Source: an uncultured Acidimicrobiales bacterium (GTDB lineage: Bacteria > Actinomycetota > Acidimicrobiia > Acidimicrobiales > SZUA-35). From it: a stretch of DNA of 39,413 bases. Each line of letters starts with the position of its first letter. Positions within the stretch are counted from its first letter, which is position 1. This document shows, in pieces, positions 29,328 through 39,413 of this stretch. The notes beneath the pieces are model-generated. The model was not told the DNA's origin. It did not search any database and was given only the letters and a program-made list of their open reading frames with translations. The translations under genes were made by a program, and so were the position numbers. The DNA is taken from contig CALHCB010000065.1 in assembly GCA_937930695.1 (NCBI GenBank), positions 1 to 39,413 of the forward strand. The letters are read 5' to 3'.

Positions 29328-29837
29328 ATGCAGGTAACGATGACCATCAACGGAGAAGAAGTCTCCAGAGAAGTAGAGCCCCGCACGCTGCTCGTGCACT
29401 TCCTTCGAGATCATGTGGGCCTGACCGGCACGCATTGGGGATGCGACACCAGCAACTGTGGCACCTGCGTCGTGTGGATTGACGAAGAGCCCGTCAAGAG
29501 CTGCACGCACCTCGCCGCCATGGCGGGGGGCCATGCCGTTCGGACCGTGGAAGGCCTCGAAGTCGACGGCGAGCTCGATCCTGTGCAAGAAGGGTTCATT
29601 CAGTGTCACGGTCTGCAATGCGGCTTCTGCACCCCGGGAATGATGATGACGGCCCGAGCGCTGCTCGATCGAAATCCTGATCCAGACGAAGCAACGATTC
29701 GTGAAGCCATCAGCGGGCAGATCTGTCGCTGTACCGGCTACTCAACCATTATCCGGTCGATCCAGTGGGCCGCATCCAAGGAGCGCGAAACCGCCGTGGA
29801 ACTTGCCGGAGCATCGAACGAGGGAGCAAGCGCATGA
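29328..29837 (+). CDS. coxS: CO dehydrogenase small subunit (two [2Fe-2S] clusters)
   Basis: The iron-sulfur subunit of CO dehydrogenase, 169 residues. The N-terminal plant-type ferredoxin domain carries [10 protein letters not shown] with a fourth Cys in V-K-S-C-T-H-L, and the C-terminal helical domain carries Q-C-G-F-C-T-P-G-M and I-C-R-C-T-G-Y. These are the eight Cys ligands of the two clusters. The family usually ends shortly after C-R-C-T-G-Y; this one has about 30 extra residues, which is ordinary. Its TGA overlaps the ATG of coxL (ATGA), indicating translational coupling. Confidence 0.96.
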
Positions 29838-32239
29838 CCGTTACTGACGACAATACGAATGCCGTCCCAACACCCGACAACAATCTGAATGACAACAAGC
29901 CGGTCGGATATGGCCGCATGCTTCGCAAAGAAGACCCTCGGTTCGTTCGAGGACTCGGCCAGTACTGCGACGATGTCGAACTTCCCGGCATGTTGCACCT
30001 CGCAATCCTTCGGTCGCCAATGGCGCACGCCAGGATCGTGAACATCGACAAGTCGGCGGCTGAAGCCCACCCCAAGGTGAAGGCCGTGATCACGGGAGCA
30101 GATCTTGCTGAGCAGGGTCTTGCCTGGATGCCAACGCTCTCCAACGATGTGCAGGCTGTGCTCGCGACCGACAAGGTTCGCTTCCAGCACCAGGAAGTGG
30201 CGTTCGTCGTTGCCGAGGACCGCTACTCCGCACGAGACGCGCTCGAGTTGATCGACGTCGAATATGAGTACATCAAGCCGGTCGTCGATGTGCGCAAGGC
30301 AATGGACCCTGAGTCCGCAATCATCCGCGACGACCTCGAAGGTAAAGAAGACAACTACTGCTTCAAATGGGAGACCGGCGACAAGGAAGCGACCGAAGCC
30401 GTCTTCGCGAACGCGGATGTGACCGTCAAGGAAGAGGTTGTCTACCCCCGAGTCCATCCTGCGCCGATGGAAACGTGCGGGTGTGTCGCAGACGTCGACC
30501 GGGTCTCGGGCAAGCTCACGTTGTGGAGCACGACCCAAGCCCCCCACGCTCACCGGACGGTGTACGCCCTCGTCTCGGGCTTGCCCGAACACAAGATCCG
30601 AGTGATCGCGCCGGACATCGGCGGCGGCTTTGGCAACAAGGTCCCGATCTATCCCGGCTACGTCTGCGCCATCGTGGCGTCACTCGTCATCGGCAAGCCC
30701 GTCAAGTGGATGGAAGACCGAACCGAGAACCTCGTCAGCACCGGCTTTGCCCGTGACTACGTAATGCAGGGTGAGATCGCGGCAACCAAAGACGGCAAGA
30801 TCCAGGCGATTCGCACGCACGTGCTTGCCGACCATGGCGCGTTCAACGGCACAGCTGCACCGCTCAAGTACCCGGCAGGTTTCTTCGGTGTCTTTACCGG
30901 GAGCTACGACATCGATGCGGCGTATTGCGACATGGACGCCGTCTATACCAACAAGGCTCCTGGAGGTGTCGCGTACGCCTGCTCGTTCCGGATCACCGAG
31001 GCGGTCTATCTGGTCGAACGAATTGTCGACTGCCTGGCCTATGAGCTCGACATGGATCCGGCAGAGCTTCGGTTGAAGAACTTCATACAGCCCGAGCAGT
31101 TCCCCTACGAAAGCAAGACCGGCTGGGTCTATGACTCTGGTGACTATGAGCCTGCGATGCGCAAGGCCATGGACATGATCGGGTACGACGATCTTCGAGC
31201 CGAACAAGCCGAGAAGCGAGCCAAGGGTGAGCTCATGGGCATCGGGATCTCGTTCTTCACCGAAGCCGTGGGTGCGGGGCCTCGCAAAGACATGGACATT
31301 CTTGGCCTCGGTATGGCGGACGGATGTGAGCTGCGAATTCATCCAACCGGCAAGGCCGTGGTGAGGCTTTCTGTGAAGACACAGGGGCAAGGGCACGAGA
31401 CGACCTTCGCCCAGATCATCGCCGAAGAGCTGGGCATCGCCCCCGACGACATCGACGTCGTTCATGGAGACACTGACAACACGCCGTTTGGTCTTGGAAC
31501 CTACGGATCGCGTTCAACGCCGGTTTCGGGAGCGGCCGCAGCACTCGTGGCGAGGAAGATCCGGGAGAAGGCACACATCATTTCCTCGGGAATGTTGGAG
31601 GCGTCGGTGGCCGATATCGAGTGGGTCAAGGGCAGCTTTCAGGTGAAGGGTGATCCAGAAAAGTCCGTCACCATCCAAGATGTCGCGATGCGTGCTCATG
31701 GAGCAGGCGATCTGCCACAGGGGATCGAGGGGGGCCTCGACGCGTCGGTTTGCTACAACCCCGACAACCTCACCTACCCATTTGGGGCCTACATCTGCGT
31801 CGTCGACGTCGATCCGGGAACCGCCGAGGTCAAAGTCCGTCGGTTCGTTGCAGTTGATGACTGCGGAACACAAATCAACCCGATGATCATCGAGGGGCAG
31901 GTCCACGGGGGCCTGACCGATGGTGTCGGGATGGCGTTGATGGAGATGATCTCTTTTGACGAGGAAGGAAACTGCCTGAACTCGACGCTCATGGACTACC
32001 TGATCCCCACGGCGATGGAGGTGCCGGATTGGGAGACCGGCCACACCGTGACCCCGTCGCCACATCATCCCATTGGGGCGAAGGGCATTGGAGAGTCGGC
32101 CACGGTGGGCTCACCGCCCGCAGTTGTCAACGCGGTCGTGGATGCGCTCAAGCCGTATGGGATCCGCCACGCCGACATGCCGCTCACCCCGTCTCGGGTG
32201 TGGGAAGCCATGCAGGGCAACCACACCCCGCCAATCTGA
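29834..32239 (+). CDS. coxL: Form I CO dehydrogenase large subunit (Mo-Cu active site)
   Basis: The catalytic subunit of aerobic CO dehydrogenase, oxidising CO to CO2 with water, 801 residues. The decisive signature is V-A-Y-A-C-S-F-R at residues 379-386, whose Cys383 corresponds to the Cu-binding Cys388 of Oligotropha carboxidovorans CoxL. The usual A-Y-R-C-S-F-R has Ala in place of the first Arg, an allowed position in form I. The N-terminal G-Y-G-R-M-L-R-K-E-D-P-R-F, G-G-G-F-G-N-K and the late G-A-K-G-I-G-E-S-A with the active-site Glu complete the family pattern. The ATG at 29834 overlaps the stop of coxS. Together with coxM and coxS this supports CO as a respiratory energy source. Confidence 0.96.
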   Translation: MTVTDDNTNAVPTPDNNLNDNKPVGYGRMLRKEDPRFVRGLGQYCDDVELPGMLHLAILRSPMAHARIVNIDKSAAEAHPKVKAVITGADLAEQGLAWMPTLSNDVQAVLATDKVRFQHQEVAFVVAEDRYSARDALELIDVEYEYIKPVVDVRKAMDPESAIIRDDLEGKEDNYCFKWETGDKEATEAVFANADVTVKEEVVYPRVHPAPMETCGCVADVDRVSGKLTLWSTTQAPHAHRTVYALVSGLPEHKIRVIAPDIGGGFGNKVPIYPGYVCAIVASLVIGKPVKWMEDRTENLVSTGFARDYVMQGEIAATKDGKIQAIRTHVLADHGAFNGTAAPLKYPAGFFGVFTGSYDIDAAYCDMDAVYTNKAPGGVAYACSFRITEAVYLVERIVDCLAYELDMDPAELRLKNFIQPEQFPYESKTGWVYDSGDYEPAMRKAMDMIGYDDLRAEQAEKRAKGELMGIGISFFTEAVGAGPRKDMDILGLGMADGCELRIHPTGKAVVRLSVKTQGQGHETTFAQIIAEELGIAPDDIDVVHGDTDNTPFGLGTYGSRSTPVSGAAAALVARKIREKAHIISSGMLEASVADIEWVKGSFQVKGDPEKSVTIQDVAMRAHGAGDLPQGIEGGLDASVCYNPDNLTYPFGAYICVVDVDPGTAEVKVRRFVAVDDCGTQINPMIIEGQVHGGLTDGVGMALMEMISFDEEGNCLNSTLMDYLIPTAMEVPDWETGHTVTPSPHHPIGAKGIGESATVGSPPAVVNAVVDALKPYGIRHADMPLTPSRVWEAMQGNHTPPI

Positions 32240-32251
32240 TCGGAGTTGGTG

Positions 32252-33154
32252 ATGACGGGAAGTAGTCGTCGACTGGCTGCTCGGATATCCGAGCTGATCG
32301 ACCAGCGCCGCCCCTTCGTCCAGGCCACCGTCGTGAGGGCGCAATGTCCCACGTCGGCCAGGCCTGGCGATGCGGCGGTGGTACTCGCCGATGGCTCGAT
32401 CGAGGGGTTCATCGGAGGACAGTGCGCTGAGGGTTCGGTGCGAGTTGCCGCGCTCGATGTGCTCGCCGGTGGTGAGTCGCTGCTGCTGAGGATTCTGCCG
32501 GAGGACTCCGATGAGTTTCCGGCAAGCCCCGGGTCCTTGACGGTGGTCAATCCATGTCTGTCGGGCGGTGCGTTGGAGATCTATCTCGAACCGAAGCTCC
32601 CCGCTCCGGAGGTCCTTGTTGTCGGCAGAACCCCGATCGCTGAGGCGCTGGTCGATTTCGGCCAACACCTGGGTTTCGTCATGACCCACGATCCGGACGG
32701 CGAGACGGATCCTCGTTCGGCGACCGCACTCCTCATCGCCAGTCATGGCCGGCATGAGGAGGAGTCGATTCGAACAGCACTCGATGCGGGCGTCGGATTC
32801 ATCGGACTCGTCGCGAGCACAACACGCGGTGCTGCGGTGGTGGAATCGCTCTCCCTTAGCGACGAGGAACGTCGCGTGGTTCGCAGCCCCGTTGGGTTCT
32901 ATATCGGGGCGAAGACGGCTGAGGAGATCTCTCTGTCGATCCTCGCCGAGGTCGTGAAAGCAGTTCGACTCGATGGGCTGGAGCCGCCCAAGACCGATGA
33001 GGTTGCTGCTCCGGCTGACGCCATCGACCCCATCTGTGGCATGACGGTCGTGGTGCAACGAGACACCCCCCACCTTCGCCACGATGGTGTCGACTTTTGG
33101 TATTGCAATCCGGGTTGCCGGACCCGTCATGAGAGCGAGCTTTCTGTTGGTTGA
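32252..33154 (+). CDS. XdhC/CoxF-type molybdenum cofactor maturation protein with C-terminal YHS domain
   Basis: A 300-residue accessory protein. The XdhC N-terminal domain has G-F-I-G-G-Q-C-A-E-G-S-V and the Rossmann C-terminal domain has V-L-V-V-G-R-T-P-I-A and H-G-R-H-E-E. XdhC proteins bind molybdenum cofactor and hand the sulfurated form to the enzyme. The last 45 residues, D-P-I-C-G-M-T-V-V-V to W-Y-C-N-P-G-C-R, form a YHS domain, a small cysteine module found on copper and other metal-handling proteins. That is unusual on XdhC and could relate to the Cu of the Mo-Cu site. The ATG at 32252 is chosen for its GGAG six bases upstream; in-frame TTG and GTG codons precede it. It overlaps coxD by 26 bp. 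Confidence 0.85.
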   Translation: MTGSSRRLAARISELIDQRRPFVQATVVRAQCPTSARPGDAAVVLADGSIEGFIGGQCAEGSVRVAALDVLAGGESLLLRILPEDSDEFPASPGSLTVVNPCLSGGALEIYLEPKLPAPEVLVVGRTPIAEALVDFGQHLGFVMTHDPDGETDPRSATALLIASHGRHEEESIRTALDAGVGFIGLVASTTRGAAVVESLSLSDEERRVVRSPVGFYIGAKTAEEISLSILAEVVKAVRLDGLEPPKTDEVAAPADAIDPICGMTVVVQRDTPHLRHDGVDFWYCNPGCRTRHESELSVG

Positions 33155-34040
33155 CGGGGTATCTCTTGCCGAGCTGCGAACCAGCCTCGACGCGGTCGAC
33201 TACGTGGTAGACGACGGTCTGGCCATGGCGCTTTTCTTGGCCCAGTCCCTCGGACAACCGGTGCTCCTCGAAGGCGAACCTGGTGTGGGCAAGACGGCTG
33301 CTGCCAAAGCGCTGGCCCAGGCACTCAGCACGCCCCTGATCCGCTTGCAGTGCTATGAGGGAATCACCGCGTCGGAGGCGCTCTACGAGTGGAACTATCC
33401 ACGCCAGCTCCTGTCGATCCGGTTGGCCGAAGCCTCTGAAACGGGTATGTCCGAAGCTGACCTGTTCAGCCCGGACTTCCTGCTCGATCGACCACTCCTG
33501 GCCGCAGTTCGTCACGAGGGCCCGGTGCCGCCGGTTTTGCTGATCGACGAGATTGATCGGGCAGATGATGAGTTCGAGGCCTTGCTGTTCGAGTTCCTCG
33601 GTGAGGCCTCGATCACGGTGCCCGAGATCGGGACGTTCAAGGCCACGACCAAGCCAATTGTGATCCTGACATCGAATCGCAGTCGAGAGCTTCACGACGC
33701 GCTCAAACGACGTTGCTTCTATCACTGGATCGACTACCCAGATGTTCTGACTGCGACCGACATCGTTCGTCGACGGGTGCCACAGAGTACGCACTCGCTC
33801 ATCGAGGCCGCCACGGGATTTGTGTCGAGTGCACGGGAACTCGATCTCGATAAGGCTCCCGGCCTGGCTGAAGCGATTGATTGGGTTGCCGCCTTGCATG
33901 CGCTCGGCATGTCTGAACTCGACCGTGGCGTCTTGACCGCAACCTTGGGCGCCATTGTGAAGACCCCAGATGATCGGGACGTGGTGCTCTCTGCGGTTGA
34001 TGCAGGAGAGCTGGGCAACGAATACCTGACGAGCGAGTGA
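33129..34040 (+). CDS. coxD: MoxR-type AAA+ ATPase for CO dehydrogenase maturation
   Basis: A 303-residue AAA+ ATPase of the MoxR/CoxD class. Walker A is L-E-G-E-P-G-V-G-K-T (residues 48-56), Walker B is V-L-L-I-D-E-I-D-R-A-D, and sensor I follows in I-V-I-L-T-S-N-R-S-R-E-L. In carboxidotrophs CoxD is needed to install sulfur and copper at the Mo-Cu site and works with the von Willebrand protein CoxE, here encoded immediately downstream with a 4-bp overlap. The ATG at 33129 lies within the end of the XdhC-YHS gene. Confidence 0.92.
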   Translation: MRASFLLVDGVSLAELRTSLDAVDYVVDDGLAMALFLAQSLGQPVLLEGEPGVGKTAAAKALAQALSTPLIRLQCYEGITASEALYEWNYPRQLLSIRLAEASETGMSEADLFSPDFLLDRPLLAAVRHEGPVPPVLLIDEIDRADDEFEALLFEFLGEASITVPEIGTFKATTKPIVILTSNRSRELHDALKRRCFYHWIDYPDVLTATDIVRRRVPQSTHSLIEAATGFVSSARELDLDKAPGLAEAIDWVAALHALGMSELDRGVLTATLGAIVKTPDDRDVVLSAVDAGELGNEYLTSE

Positions 34041-35257
34041 CCGGACGTTCATCGGCCGGGACGGTCTTCGCGGGGCTGGACCGCGCCATGTTCGTGTCGT
34101 CGTTCGCGGCAAAGCTGCGGTCTGCGGGAATCCCGACGCCGCTCAGCGCTATTGAGCGTTCTGCCGCCTCGCTCGATTTGATCGGGCCGACAATCCGAAT
34201 GACCGATCTCTACTGGGCACTGCGGGTGAGCTTTGTGACGCGCCAAGAGGATCTCGAGCTCTTCGATCGGGTATTCGATGCGGTCTTCAGTTCGGAATTC
34301 AGCCCGCGTGGCGAAAGCCGACGTCAGCGTCAGGGAACACCTGGAGCCGGGAACACTGAGCACAAGCTGCGACTCAGTCCGCTCGGAAGCGCAATCACAG
34401 GAGCGGGGCTGAACTGGTCATCACAACCCTCGATCGTCGATGACGATGACGATGACGATGAGAGCGATGCGGAGGAGGAAACACTCCTCCCCGAGCTGGC
34501 TCCATCCGATGACGCGACCGACGTCGACCGGCCGTTTGACCTGCTGGACGAACAGGAGTTGGTGGAAGCGGGGCGTTCGATCGAAAGGGCCATGGCTGAT
34601 TGGCCGATGAGGCGGAGTCGTCGAGTACGCATTGGCCGAAAGGGTCGACGTCCCGATCTGCGGTCCTCACTTCGCCAATCCATGCGGTCGGGGGGAGAGC
34701 CGCTCACCCTGATGGCGCGGAGTCCAAGACAGCGCCCTCGCCGGGTTGTTGTCATCGTCGATGTGAGTGGCTCGATGGAGAGCTTTGCTCGCTCGTACCT
34801 TCATCTCACGCGGGCATTGGCGATCGCGGGTCACGCCGAGGTGTTTGCGTTTGGAACGAGCCTCACGCGGATCACGACTGCCCTTCGGCACCGATCGCCC
34901 ATCGAAGCGGTCGACATGGCCTCCGAACTTGTCGTCGATCGCTTTGGTGGCACCCGGATCGCGGCCAACATCAGGCATTTGCTTCGTCACCCTCATTGGA
35001 GCGGGTTGCTCCGAGGTGCTGTCGTCGTGGTTGCCAGCGACGGTTGGGACACCGACTTGCCCGAAGCGCTCGATGCGCAGATGGAAAAATTGTCCCGAAT
35101 AGCCAACCGAGTTGTCTGGGTGAACCCTCGATCAGCGGCGACGGGCTTCGAGCCGCTCGTAGGGGCGATGGTGGCGGCGATGCCCCACTGCGACGCAGTC
35201 GTTTCGGGTCATTCGGTGGGGGCGATGGACGAACTGGTCGCTGCAATCGTCGCCTGA
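34037..35257 (+). CDS. coxE: von Willebrand A domain protein CoxE
   Basis: A 406-residue partner of the CoxD ATPase. The C-terminal half is a VWA domain with the MIDAS motif I-V-D-V-S-G-S-M-E (D-x-S-x-S) and the later T-R-I and S-D-G-W-D elements. The N-terminal half is the CoxE-specific helical region, followed by a strikingly acidic run (D-D-D-D-D-D-E-S-D-A-E-E-E, near residues 135-147) and an Arg-rich stretch just before the VWA domain. The start is a GTG overlapping the coxD stop (GTGA). Its TGA ends the cox operon; 72 bp without recognisable signals follow before the next gene. Confidence 0.92.
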   Translation: MTGRSSAGTVFAGLDRAMFVSSFAAKLRSAGIPTPLSAIERSAASLDLIGPTIRMTDLYWALRVSFVTRQEDLELFDRVFDAVFSSEFSPRGESRRQRQGTPGAGNTEHKLRLSPLGSAITGAGLNWSSQPSIVDDDDDDDESDAEEETLLPELAPSDDATDVDRPFDLLDEQELVEAGRSIERAMADWPMRRSRRVRIGRKGRRPDLRSSLRQSMRSGGEPLTLMARSPRQRPRRVVVIVDVSGSMESFARSYLHLTRALAIAGHAEVFAFGTSLTRITTALRHRSPIEAVDMASELVVDRFGGTRIAANIRHLLRHPHWSGLLRGAVVVVASDGWDTDLPEALDAQMEKLSRIANRVVWVNPRSAATGFEPLVGAMVAAMPHCDAVVSGHSVGAMDELVAAIVA

Positions 35258-35329
35258 GAATCGGGAGTCGAATGATTCCTCGGGGACATCGCTTACTCGT
35301 GATTGTCCGTCTCCTACTGTCTTGTCGTT

Positions 35330-36055
35330 GTGCGGAAACTTGTCGTGGTAGCTCTGTGTTTTGTTTTGTGTCTGGTGTCGCCGTCGATCGGCGTTCCGGC
35401 GGCGTCTGCTGCTGAGGGGGAATCGGCGAACGCAGCGTGGCTGCGGGATGTCTACGAGGACATTCTCGGCCGAGACGCGGACGGCGGCGGCTTGGACTTC
35501 TGGGTCGGTCGTCTTGCCGGTGGCGGAGATCGATCTCGGGCCGTGGTTGCTCGGCAACTCGTGTCAAGTCCGGAAGGCTCAAGTGGCGAGGTGCAACGGG
35601 CGTACGGCGACATCTTGGGTCGTGGTCCCGACGCCGCTGGCTTGCCTTTTTGGACCGGCTTTCTGCAGACCGAGCCCGTTGTCACCCTGCGAGCAGCTTT
35701 GTATTCAAGCGATGAGGTGCTCACCAACGCTGGATCGGTCGAAGCTTGGATCGAACTGCTCTATCAAGATCTTCTCGGTCGCCAGCCGGACGCCGCTGGC
35801 GCCGCATTCTGGAAGGGACAAATCGAGGCGGGCGTCAACCGCTATGTCTTGGTTTCTCAGGTCTATCTGAGTGACGAGGGCCTTGGTCGTCGAGTTGATG
35901 CGTACTACGCCGAGATCCTCGGACGAGTTTCGACACCGACAGAACGAGCCGCAGGGATCGCCATCATCCGTGGTGCGGACGAGCGCGAACTGAGAGTTGT
36001 GTTGCTGTCGTCGGACGAGCGGTTCGAGACGTTCCTGAACAGGGTCGGCGTATGA
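35330..36055 (+). CDS. Secreted protein with three or more DUF4214 repeats
   Basis: A 241-residue exported protein. The signal peptide is R-K-L-V-V-V-A-L-C-F-V-L-C-L-V to about A-S-A-A-E-G. The mature part is made of repeats of the DUF4214 kind (Y-x-D-I-L-G-R-x-x-D-x-x-G-L-x-F-W), at W-L-R-D-V-Y-E-D-I-L-G-R, A-Y-G-D-I-L-G-R, L-Y-Q-D-L-L-G-R and a degenerate Y-Y-A-E-I-L-G-R. Such repeats occur in bacterial surface and secreted proteins; their ligand is uncertain. The GTG at 35330 puts the signal peptide at the start; an in-frame TTG at 35303 is possible. The stop overlaps the start of the MauE-like gene (ATGA), which ties this protein to the redox operon. Confidence 0.82.
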   Translation: MRKLVVVALCFVLCLVSPSIGVPAASAAEGESANAAWLRDVYEDILGRDADGGGLDFWVGRLAGGGDRSRAVVARQLVSSPEGSSGEVQRAYGDILGRGPDAAGLPFWTGFLQTEPVVTLRAALYSSDEVLTNAGSVEAWIELLYQDLLGRQPDAAGAAFWKGQIEAGVNRYVLVSQVYLSDEGLGRRVDAYYAEILGRVSTPTERAAGIAIIRGADERELRVVLLSSDERFETFLNRVGV

Positions 36056-36588
36056 CGTCCATTGCATCGGTTTCGGCGTTGGTGCTCGCTGCCGTCCTCG
36101 CAACTTCCGCGATTGGGAAACTTCGTGATCGTCAAAGCGTGAGCGACGACTTTGCGGCCATGGGGCTCCCGCGTCCCGAAGCGCTCACGCTTTTTGTGTC
36201 ATTGCTCGAATTGTTTGTTGCCGCCGCCTTGCTTGTGGCCCCCCGCCTGGGGGCGATGGCGGCGGTCGCGATGCTTGGCATCTTCACCGTTTTTCTTGTG
36301 CGAATCGTTCGGTCAGGCGTCGTTGTGCGGTGCGGCTGCTTCGGGGCACGACATCGCAACGCGGTGTCTTCTGTCGAGATCGCACGCAACGGTGGTCTTG
36401 TCCTGCTCGCCATATTGGCCCTCGGCGTGACCTCAATCGTCGCTCCGACGCTGCCGTCGGTCATGTTCGTTTCTTCGCTGTTGGCGGTCGGCATGCTCGG
36501 CCTCCAGCTCCTCGCGCTTCGGCGAGATGTCGGCAGCGTGCTCTCTGTCCAACTTGCCGGTGAACTTCGTGAGGACGGTTCGACGTGA
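36052..36588 (+). CDS. MauE/DoxX-like redox-associated membrane protein
   Basis: A 178-residue integral membrane protein with four or five helices. It shows the MauE pattern: L-A-T-S-A-I-G-K-L-R-D in the first helix end and a R-C-G-C-F-G-A motif (C94, C96) in the loop after the third helix. In methylamine utilisation MauE and MauD are needed for disulfide formation and export-side folding of the light subunit MauA; the C-x-C pair is taken as redox-active. The ATG overlaps the DUF4214 stop and its own stop overlaps the next start (GTGA). The general family includes many non-methylamine members. Confidence 0.82.
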   Translation: MTSIASVSALVLAAVLATSAIGKLRDRQSVSDDFAAMGLPRPEALTLFVSLLELFVAAALLVAPRLGAMAAVAMLGIFTVFLVRIVRSGVVVRCGCFGARHRNAVSSVEIARNGGLVLLAILALGVTSIVAPTLPSVMFVSSLLAVGMLGLQLLALRRDVGSVLSVQLAGELREDGST

Positions 36589-37091
36589 GCGGTGGTGTTT
36601 GGATTGCTTCCTACGTGATCCTGTGGATTGCGGTTCTCGGACTGTCGTTCGCCGTCGTCGTTCTGCTTCGACAGATCGGTGTGCTCCATACCCGGGTCGC
36701 TCCGATGGGGATCAATTTCGCGGGAGAGGGCCCTGACCTCGATGCATCGGCCCCACCGCTGCCGGGCGTGAGTTATCCCGAATCAGAGGTCACGGTCGTG
36801 GCGTTCACCTCTCCAACATGTGAGCTGTGCGCGGCCCTCGTCCCTGGCCTTCGTCGCATCGAGAGCTCCTATGACGAGGTGCAGTTCACAACGGTCTCAT
36901 CCGAGGGTGCCCAAAACGTCTTCAGCGCGTTTCAGGTCCGATCGACGCCGTATTTGGTGGCGATCGACCGCGAGGGGATCGTGCGCAGCCGCGGGGTGGC
37001 AAACACCCTTGATCAAGCAGAAGAGATGCTGGCCGAGGTCCTGGCCGGCCCGCCGATCTCCGGCGAATCAGCAACAGGAGAATCGCGTTGA
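36585..37091 (+). CDS. MauD-like membrane-anchored thioredoxin-fold protein
   Basis: A 168-residue protein with one N-terminal membrane helix (residues about 5-28), then R-Q-I-G-V-L-H-T-R-V-A-P-M-G, which strongly recalls the MauD linker, and a thioredoxin domain facing out of the cell. The active site is T-S-P-T-C-E-L-C (C79, C82) and the cis-proline is in R-S-T-P-Y-L-V (P122). The domain is short but complete. In mau operons MauD is the oxidoreductase that rearranges MauA disulfides. The GTG start overlaps the MauE-like stop; its TGA overlaps the TTG start of the next gene. Confidence 0.87.
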   Translation: MSGGVWIASYVILWIAVLGLSFAVVVLLRQIGVLHTRVAPMGINFAGEGPDLDASAPPLPGVSYPESEVTVVAFTSPTCELCAALVPGLRRIESSYDEVQFTTVSSEGAQNVFSAFQVRSTPYLVAIDREGIVRSRGVANTLDQAEEMLAEVLAGPPISGESATGESR

Positions 37092-38527
37092 ATCGTGTTG
37101 ACTCAGCAACCGAAGCATTGACTCGGTGGACTGCCGCTCGGACGACGAGGCGGTCGTTTCTCCACCGACTCGGACAACTGGCGATGTTCGTGGCTGCAGG
37201 CCCGACCGTGGCCGCAATTCTGATTCGTAAGGCTGAGGCCCGAGTGTGTGGCCAGAGTGGTGTCACACCAAAGTGCGACACATTCGACTGCAACGGTGCC
37301 GACGACGTATGGGGTTGGTGCTGGTACGCAAACGATGGTTGCTGCCGGAACGACGGCCTGAAGAAGATCTGTGATTGCTGCACGGTGAACTACCCGAATG
37401 TGCACGGCTACTGCCCGTCAGGAACGAACGTGCGATGCATTGTGGAAAGCTGCGGCAACGACCCGCGACTTCTGACCGTGGTCTTGACCGGGCTCCGCTG
37501 GGACAACAGCACCGGCTACGGGGCTTCCGCTGCGGTCGCAGCCGAGGCTGGATCCAAGCGCGTCGTGGTTACCAACGCCGACGATCCCTTCGCCGCGGCA
37601 ATCGCGGCGCCGCTTGCGGGAGCGCTCGGCAGCCCGGTGCTCGCCTTCACCGGAGCTGGCGGAGGAACGATTGCGACAGCGACCGGGTCGGCCAACGCAG
37701 CCCACCTCAGTGCCATCCGGACACTCGGCGCCGAGACTGCAATGATCGTTGGAACCGTCGATTCTGCGGTCGCTACTGAACTGAGCGCGCTCGGATTGAC
37801 GATCGACATCGTCTCGCCGCTGGCAGATCCAGGACCATTGAGCGCCGCAGTGGCCGAGCGGATCATCTCGATCAACGACATCAATCGCACTGTGACTGTG
37901 ACCGAGACCGGGCTGTCTGCAGCAGCGTTGCCTCTCGCAGCGAGCTTCGCTGCCATCAACGGCTACCCACTGATCGTTGGGTCAGATGCAGTGGCAACGG
38001 TTGGGCTGCCCACCGTGTATGTCGGCCCCGAACCCATCGATGCCGGTGTTCCCTCCGAGCGTACGAAGGCCACGTCGCTGGCCGCGCTGTCGATCGAGCT
38101 TGCCGAGTTGGCAGCGGCTGCGCCGTTTGTCGACGCATCACGAGTCACTATTGCTCCCGACGGCAGCGGTGATCTGATGGGACTCATCAACACCCAAGCA
38201 CCGATCGTTCTCCACCCGGCAGGCAGCCTCGGGCCGGTTGCTGATTGGCTACAGACCCATTCGTTGCGATTTGGTGCGCTGACCGAGGTCTTCTACGTCA
38301 CCGGTCCGGGAGCGCTTGACACGCAGAACTTCTGGCAGCTGCAGGGAACCGTCAATGGCTTCCGAGTTGACCAATTGACGGGCGAATCCGGTCAGGGCCT
38401 TCCCGTGATTCGGCAACCTTGGGCCGAGCGGCCGATCGGCAAAGCCCGCATCGACGGAGCTCTTGAATGGGGCAGTGAGGTAACTCCGAGTTACTGGACG
38501 AGTTCTGCTCAAACCTTCAGACGATGA
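37088..38527 (+). CDS. Tat-exported MauA-like 12-cysteine domain fused to cell-wall-binding repeats (CWB2-like)
   Basis: A 479-residue exported protein. Residues 18-51 form a Tat signal (R-T-T-R-R-S-F-L, then a hydrophobic run). Residues 54-122 hold twelve Cys (54, 63, 68, 78, 85, 86, 95, 97, 98, 109, 117, 122). The order C-x-x-D-G...I-C-D-C...Y-C-P-S-G-T and a late S-C match, by memory, the first half of the methylamine dehydrogenase light chain. The tryptophan that forms TTQ (in S-W-V-A-S-C of MauA) is replaced (C-I-V-E-S-C), and the second half of MauA is absent, so no TTQ enzyme is expected. W-G-W-C-W at 75-79 is unusual. From about 130 the protein has two or three Ala/Gly-rich repeats like cell-wall-binding repeat 2 (T-N-A-D-D-P-F-A-A-A-I-A-A-P-L-A, then A-M-I-V-G-T-V-D). 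The TTG start overlaps the MauD-like stop and has AGGAG seven bases upstream. Confidence 0.75.
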   Translation: MNRVDSATEALTRWTAARTTRRSFLHRLGQLAMFVAAGPTVAAILIRKAEARVCGQSGVTPKCDTFDCNGADDVWGWCWYANDGCCRNDGLKKICDCCTVNYPNVHGYCPSGTNVRCIVESCGNDPRLLTVVLTGLRWDNSTGYGASAAVAAEAGSKRVVVTNADDPFAAAIAAPLAGALGSPVLAFTGAGGGTIATATGSANAAHLSAIRTLGAETAMIVGTVDSAVATELSALGLTIDIVSPLADPGPLSAAVAERIISINDINRTVTVTETGLSAAALPLAASFAAINGYPLIVGSDAVATVGLPTVYVGPEPIDAGVPSERTKATSLAALSIELAELAAAAPFVDASRVTIAPDGSGDLMGLINTQAPIVLHPAGSLGPVADWLQTHSLRFGALTEVFYVTGPGALDTQNFWQLQGTVNGFRVDQLTGESGQGLPVIRQPWAERPIGKARIDGALEWGSEVTPSYWTSSAQTFRR

Positions 38528-39413
38528 GCGCGTCGCTCATCGTCGTTTTCGGTGCCGCAAGCTTTGCTGCGATCCACACAATGTGGTCGCCCTGAGGTTT
38601 GTCGGTCGCAGAGACGCTGCTTCCCTCGGTCGAGGCTCGCAAACGTTGGCATGTGCGAGCAGTTTTCGCCGCGTCTGCGCTCGCCGCAGGCGCCGCGGCG
38701 GGTTTTGTTCTCGGCGTCGCTGCTGCGGTTCTGAAATCTGTCTTGGGTGCGGACCAAACTGGACCTGGACTCCTTGCTGTTGGTGGGGTGATCGGAGCGG
38801 CGCTCCTTCTCGATGGGTTGCACCTCGGCTCTGGTCGAGCACGTCCGTTGGCGGTTCATCGCCAGGTTCCTCGAGAATGGGGACGGATCTTCTCTGCTCC
38901 AGTCGTTGCGCTGCTCTACGGCGCCCGTTTGGGAATTGGGCCACTGACGATGTTGTCGACGTGGTTGTGGTGGGGAGCCATGATCGGGGCCAGCTTGCTC
39001 GGCGTCGGCTCGGCGGTGTTGACCGGAATGGTGTTCAGCGCTGTGCGCGTGGTGGCCAACGAGATGTTGGCACGTCGTGTTCGATCTCACGGGCCGGCGA
39101 TCGTCGGCCGTCTGGGATCGGTCACCAGGACGTCGTGGATCTCGATCGACGGGGGAGCGGCGATTGGTCTCGTTGCGGTAGCCATAATCGCTGCGGCCTG
39201 CGTCTCCGGGACCGATGTCGAGATTGACAGCTCGGGCGATTCTGTCGGAGCAACAACGGGTGTGGAGGGCGCGACCCAACCGAGTGTGACCGCAACTGTC
39301 GCCGATCGCGGCGAGTCGAGTGTTGGCAACGATGCGTCCGAAGGCATCGACGCTGACCCTGCGCCTGAACTGCCCACTGGGGAACAGAACGAAGACGGAG
39401 AACAAACCGTGGC
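38524..39413 (+). CDS. CcdA/MauF-like membrane redox protein, probable selenoprotein, partial at right end
   Basis: The reading frame starts at an ATG that overlaps the preceding stop (ATGA), like the junctions upstream, and runs to the window end except for one TGA at 38593-38595 (codon 24). The first 23 codons give a membrane helix ending H-T-M-W-S-P; after the TGA the frame continues G-L-S-V-A-E-T-L-L-P. This fits the S-P-C-G-L-S motif of CcdA/MauF-type electron carriers with Sec in place of Cys. Five or six further helices follow (A-A-G-F-V-L-G, A-P-V-V-A-L-L-Y-G-A-R-L-G-I-G-P and others), without the second intramembrane Cys of CcdA. A Ser/Gly/Glu/Thr-rich tail begins after the helix ending A-A-A-C-V-S-G and continues past the edge. 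Automatic calling would start late, at a TTG at 38599 or a GTG, and lose the active site. A Cys-to-TGA error is the main alternative. Confidence 0.7.
38604..38624 (+). promoter_or_regulatory. Candidate bacterial SECIS hairpin of the CcdA/MauF-like gene
   Basis: Starting 13 nt after the TGA, GCAG and CTGC pair around the loop AGACG; beyond a 2x2 internal mismatch the outer GG pairs with CC. The G at loop position 2 and the 17-nt distance to the loop fit the bacterial SECIS pattern. The upper part (CGG-two bases-GCAG) closely resembles the E. coli fdhF element as I remember it. The stem is short, so a covariance search is needed to rank it. Confidence 0.55.

Follow-up and report, generated by a model that had tools for sequence, protein, structure and literature searches.

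A homologue of MauF with a predicted selenocysteine at its conserved cysteine position in Acidimicrobiia

The analyzed stretch of DNA (referred to as the window; 39,413 nucleotides, i.e. the entire contig G000:C65 of an uncultured Acidimicrobiales bacterium) ends within a gene whose in-frame TGA codon can be assigned, with high confidence, to selenocysteine (Sec), and whose product can be identified with the same confidence as a homologue of MauF. Gene-level evidence for Sec decoding is strong, while the insertion itself is inferred from sequence comparisons, without protein or 75Se data.

Reading frame of the mauF-like gene

Frame reading of the window revealed a single frame on the forward strand, running from ATG 38524 to the window end (38524–39413), with TGA 38593–38595 as its sole stop, exactly as proposed in the preliminary description. 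The TGA is codon 24 of the frame and lies in the protein context S-P-(TGA)-G-L-S. The start codon forms part of an ATGA sequence (38524–38527), in which it overlaps the stop codon of the upstream gene. Hydrophobic segments were found on both sides of the TGA position, in accordance with the membrane helices that had been postulated there.

The contig end falls inside the mauF-like gene, and the window contains only codons 1–296. One end of contig C107 shares a 62-base overlap with the last bases of the window. Joining the frames of the two contigs yields a protein of 472 residues (TGA counted as a residue), with a stop codon at L003:9322. In the joined sequence (window 38524–39413 plus L003:9322–9912), residue 226 is the last of a lipobox-like A-A-A-C, behind which approximately 245 residues follow, and the protein looks like a lipoprotein fused behind a membrane domain. 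Some relatives of this protein stop near the lipobox-like position.

Conservation of the TGA codon among homologues

The comparison covered 128 distinct loci with a homologue, almost all of them in Acidimicrobiia. The motif was read in each fetched locus as W-x-P-x-G-x-S, with the fourth place open to any residue. At the position aligned with codon 24, a TGA was present in 79 loci and a Cys codon (TGC or TGT) in the remaining 49; no other codon was observed, and the surrounding motif was otherwise invariant: W-S-P-(Sec/Cys)-G. The preliminary description had inferred that Sec replaces Cys and had suggested an alignment of homologues at codon 24 as a check; the alignment, with Cys or in-frame TGA only and no non-Cys residue, supports the inference. 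Homologues were found in 33 of 61 genomes (the genome of the window and those of 60 relatives), and in most of these cases the frame contained a single TGA.

The proteins may be divided into subfamily A (WSPUGLSVAET; includes the window protein) with TGA in every member, subfamily B (mostly WSPUGESM), likewise with TGA, and set C (mostly WSPCGLSM), which has Cys. In a quick tree, subfamily A formed one clade (support 98) and the main Cys clade was nested within subfamily B. The long branches of MauF and subfamily A may have been joined falsely in this tree. One Cys protein (L181:4189–4842), encoded by the SelB-bearing genome G296, is placed separately among Sec proteins in the same tree, and its Cys form is probably, as judged from sequence, a separate Sec-to-Cys change. 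The tree also revealed that the homologue from genome G058, of the same order, is near-identical to that of Candidatus Microthrix parvicella RN1, a bacterium placed by NCBI within the Acidimicrobiales (Acidimicrobiia).

A single stop in an otherwise open frame of a draft assembly might result from a sequencing error, or might mark a pseudogene with a nonsense mutation. However, 79 distinct loci, spread over many genera and families, share the TGA, which invariably occupies the Cys position of the motif, and the sequence downstream of it is under purifying selection. This explanation, which can be given almost no credence, was rejected for the family on the grounds of the 79 loci with an aligned TGA.

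The pN/pS ratio of subfamily A was 0.27 in the 10 codons before the TGA and 0.27 in the 12 codons after it, as compared to 0.98 upstream of the start codon. The corresponding values for subfamily B were 0.37, 0.25 and 0.99. Since the ratio is low before the TGA and close to 1 upstream of the start, we conclude that the segment preceding the TGA is translated and maintained as protein. The sequence just behind the TGA contains an open frame starting with TTG, and it could be supposed that the TGA is a true stop, terminating a short leader peptide, and that the membrane protein is translated from a second start (e.g. TTG 38599). Selection of equal strength on both sides of the TGA in subfamily A speaks against such an arrangement, as do the Cys homologues, which read straight through this position, and MauF itself, which possesses both the segment preceding the TGA and the Cys. 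A true stop with a downstream start is very improbable, and was rejected on the basis of the pN/pS values and the uninterrupted Cys homologues.

Selenocysteine machinery

The genome containing the window encodes all of the components that the preliminary description had proposed to look for: (i) tRNA-Sec (64 bits; gathering score 47), (ii) SelB (281 bits; cut-off 242), (iii) SelA (400 bits), whose gene directly precedes that of SelB, and (iv) SelD (363 bits). The selD gene contains an in-frame TGA of its own (L102); such codons are known for SelD selenoproteins. It shares with the mauF-like gene the presence of an in-frame TGA in a Sec-decoding genome, but belongs to a known selenoprotein family.

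Reading TGA as a sense codon throughout the genome, e.g. as Trp, would also open the frame of the mauF-like gene. Yet TGA is an ordinary stop codon here: it terminates 17 of the 20 larger genes of the window, in which Trp is encoded by TGG. Moreover, the homologous residue is Cys and not Trp, and both SelB and tRNA-Sec are present. Reassignment to Trp, which hardly deserves consideration, was rejected given the usual role of TGA as a stop.

Within the class sample, SelB was present in 51 of 58 genomes with the Sec form, compared to 11 of 30 genomes with the Cys form (Fisher p = 1.2e-6, a value that overstates independence, the genomes being related). SelB was not detected in seven of the 58 Sec genomes, all of which are drafts; tRNA-Sec was found in two of these. 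In genome G038, which carries the Cys form and consists of one contig (99% complete), neither SelB nor tRNA-Sec exceeded the cut-off.

SECIS-like hairpin

The published limits for bacterial SECIS elements (bSECIS) comprise a loop of 3–9 nt with G in the first two positions, a stem of at least 4 bp, a distance of 16–37 nt between the UGA and the loop, and a minimum folding energy of −7.5 kcal/mol or lower (PMC13188914). A hairpin within these limits was found in 71 of the 79 Sec genes, compared to 17.6 expected from synonymous-codon shuffles. The excess was observed in both subfamily A (21 of 23 genes; 4.7 expected from codon shuffles) and subfamily B (50 of 56; 12.9 expected), while only 7 of the 49 Cys genes had such a hairpin (6.4 expected). 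Profiles along the gene showed that the excess is confined to the region just after the TGA; the hairpin loop usually starts 33 nt after this codon. Covariation in the subfamily A hairpin was modest (its score was higher than in any of the 500 shuffles, yet shifting the register by −1 gave a similar score), and the analysis therefore rested on the shuffling of codons and on the Cys genes as a control.

The hairpin of the window itself (38624–38635, forward strand; stem CCTC/GAGG, loop GGTC beginning after 32 nt from the TGA) is weak. Its 4-bp stem has a folding energy of only −3.7 kcal/mol (shuffle p 0.38); the 30-mer surrounding it reaches −7.7 kcal/mol. Eight Sec genes fall outside the bSECIS limits, and that of the window is among them. 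The stems of its relatives at the same place comprise 6–9 bp. Thus, of the earlier claim of a hairpin at the right distance, the location holds and is conserved in the family, but the stem in the window is weak. An Rfam scan of the window gave nothing at gathering scores.

Relationship to MauF and to CcdA/DsbD proteins

Comparison of the family profile with that of MauF (hhalign) gave, over 186 columns, a probability of 99.0 and an E value of 7.4e-18; the Sec residue was aligned on the MauF cysteine. The MauF reference sequences were derived from annotated plasmids of Pseudomonadota, and all of these true MauF sequences contain STWSPCGYSS; the window protein has WSP-U-G, i.e. Sec in place of the Cys of WSPCG. 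A plasmid search with a Cys homologue as the query gave no match. The W-S-P-C-G-x-S, QVP and G-L-Y-G...LG...T segments of MauF of Paracoccus denitrificans (WP_011750949.1) align with the window family, and the P. denitrificans protein is also encoded together with MauE, MauD and a Tat-exported Cys-rich protein of the MauA type. The window protein differs in having Sec instead of Cys, as well as the lipobox-like segment and the long C-terminal part. Furthermore, its MauA-like partner lacks Trp at the place of MauA Trp57, and a scan of nine window genes, covering 29765 to the contig end, detected neither mauB nor other methylamine dehydrogenase (MADH) genes.

The preliminary description had assigned the protein to CcdA/MauF-type carriers. 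The MauF part of this assignment is well supported, but membership in CcdA/DsbD proper, or possession of their fold, has not been demonstrated. The window family resembles CcdA/DsbD (PF02683, PF13386) in that its members are polytopic membrane proteins whose first membrane segment lies close to a Pro-Cys/Sec motif. The CcdA/DsbD scheme uses two cysteines, a conserved pair in membrane helices 1 and 4, and this pair is missing from the window family, in which a single Cys/Sec is invariant and no second conserved Cys occurs in the membrane part. Pfam contains no family matching the window protein, and there was no DsbD or CcdA match at E up to 1; the best match among its relatives, that of a subfamily B protein to DsbD_2 (E 3.8e-4), was below the cut-off. 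The predicted model of the window protein (pLDDT 87.8) gave no Foldseek match at E 0.001 or better, and no CcdA. In VIA-align searches with this model the best Z score was 6.5, too low to be meaningful for helical bundles; no CcdA chain was among the matches listed, and the weak matches included Fe-S-bearing NqrE/RnfA (Z about 6). NCBIfam likewise has no family for the window protein, and none of its selenoprotein models matched the 28 members tested.

MauF is absent from an inventory of prokaryotic selenoproteins from 2026, which lists 119 families and subfamilies (PMC13188914). The nearest entry is TsoB (NF045694), a catalogued Sec-containing DsbD-like protein resembling a rhodanese/DsbD fusion (PMC13188914); it differs from the MauF-like proteins in its UxxxxU motif with two Sec residues and in its rhodanese part, and its model matched neither the window protein nor the 28 members. 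Hence, the earlier statement that no Sec-containing member of this carrier group is known seems to hold only for MauF: Sec in a DsbD-like protein has a precedent in TsoB, whereas Sec in MauF appears to be without one. Literature searches for selenoproteins in connection with MauF or Acidimicrobiia yielded no relevant paper; they did not cover preprints or the majority of subscription journals, and an earlier mention is possible. The MauF-like proteins add to the inventory a selenoprotein family found in Acidimicrobiia. Automated annotation in which TGA is treated as a stop would truncate such genes, and they are likely to have been missed in public genomes.

The mau-like operon and the proposed role of selenocysteine

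The mauF-like gene is the last of a MauE–MauD–MauA-like–MauF operon, all genes of which lie on the forward strand. The MauE-like membrane protein (36052–36588; PF07291, E 2e-21, above cut-off) contains C-G-C (Cys94, Cys96). The MauD-like protein (36585–37091) is a membrane-anchored thioredoxin whose active site is C-E-L-C (Cys79, Cys82); it matches PF00085 above the cut-off, TIGR02661 with E 6e-22 (below the equivalog cut-off) and Paracoccus MauD at 32%. The MauA-like protein (37088–38527; TIGR02659, E 6e-4, below cut-off) consists of a Tat leader, a 12-Cys domain and about 350 more residues. It shows solid resemblance to MauA in the Tat leader only, and homology of the mature domain has not been shown: a PDB sequence search retrieved only a chance-level match to the methylamine dehydrogenase light chain (E 7.2), and the domain model was poor (pLDDT 63) and matched nothing. 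The C-terminal part of about 350 residues (window 37487–38524) is less conserved and has no Pfam match.

In each of the 19 subfamily A loci for which wide flanks were available, genes for MauE, MauD and the MauA-like protein were found upstream of the Sec gene (loci cut by a contig end were counted as far as they reach). The three genes also adjoin the Sec gene in most subfamily B loci, and about half of the Cys loci likewise have them beside the Cys gene. The operon is preceded by a gene for a DUF4214 protein (35303–36055, forward strand; PF13946), and most of the remaining subfamily A loci from the same family likewise have this gene ahead of their mau-like genes.

The function of MauF, with its lone WSPCG cysteine, is unsettled. 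Sec is found in proteins mostly at redox-active sites, and since it is exchanged for Cys at this position, the lone cysteine is pointed to as the reactive residue of MauF; the role of MauF thereby becomes a testable question. In the mechanism that we propose, UGA codon 24 is predicted with high confidence to be decoded as Sec by the SelA/SelB/SelD/tRNA-Sec machinery of the host, aided by the hairpin about 33 nt downstream, and the alignment shows the product to be a MauF homologue with Sec in place of its single conserved cysteine. As inferred from the operon, this protein may work with the co-encoded MauE and MauD, the three proteins setting the disulfides of the exported 12-Cys MauA-like protein. 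The exchange partner of Sec is most likely MauD or MauE, given the thiol-redox nature of both proteins and the Cys-rich character of the exported product. Since there is no second conserved Cys in the protein, a relay would need a partner cysteine, with which Sec would form a mixed selenenylsulfide. The chemistry that we consider most likely, again by inference, is a relay in which Sec passes reducing equivalents on to MauD/MauE, either across the membrane or inside it, for disulfide correction. A redox relay that helps to mature the secreted Cys-rich MauA-like protein is a likely role by inference, and for the specific relay function of the Sec residue the chances seem roughly even.

The MauF-like selenoprotein might instead use Sec as a membrane oxidant or isomerase site, in peroxide reduction, or in metal or cofactor binding. 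The presence of a single Sec/Cys in each protein, in contrast to the two cysteines of the CcdA/DsbD scheme, is compatible with these functions, as are the absence of a clear structural match to CcdA and the weak one to NqrE/RnfA. The thiol-redox nature of the operon partners and the Cys-rich exported protein nevertheless favour thiol exchange, and a role other than a relay, though a genuine possibility, is not the one we would expect. Returning to the relay, we may speculate that MauF acts as a selenol/thiol carrier with a single carrier residue, as part of a wider MauE–MauD–MauF system by which the secreted Cys-rich MauA-like proteins of Acidimicrobiia are matured. On this tentative proposal, Sec would be the commoner form in the class sampled, Cys forms nested in the Sec clade would represent later Sec-to-Cys changes (as suggested by the quick tree only), and the system might also serve a tryptophylquinone-like enzyme where the MauA-like partner has an invariant G-W-W.

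This G-W-W, located a few residues after C-P-P-G-T, was observed in the MauA-like proteins encoded beside subfamily B and set C MauF (L125:2208–2777, L148:6798–7367 and 15 others in alignment A5), which often also contain P-P-W-x-W-D near the domain end. We take the G-W-W position to be the place of the quinone-forming Trp57 of MauA, and on sequence grounds alone a tryptophylquinone-like cofactor in these proteins is conceivable.

The region directly upstream of the mau-like genes (window 29765–35257) carries genes for a molybdenum hydroxylase (CoxL-like) and for XdhC/CoxI, AAA and CoxE-like proteins. The last three also adjoin the mau-like operon in two genomes of the same genus (L103 and L122), and part of the molybdenum hydroxylase is retained in L103 as well.
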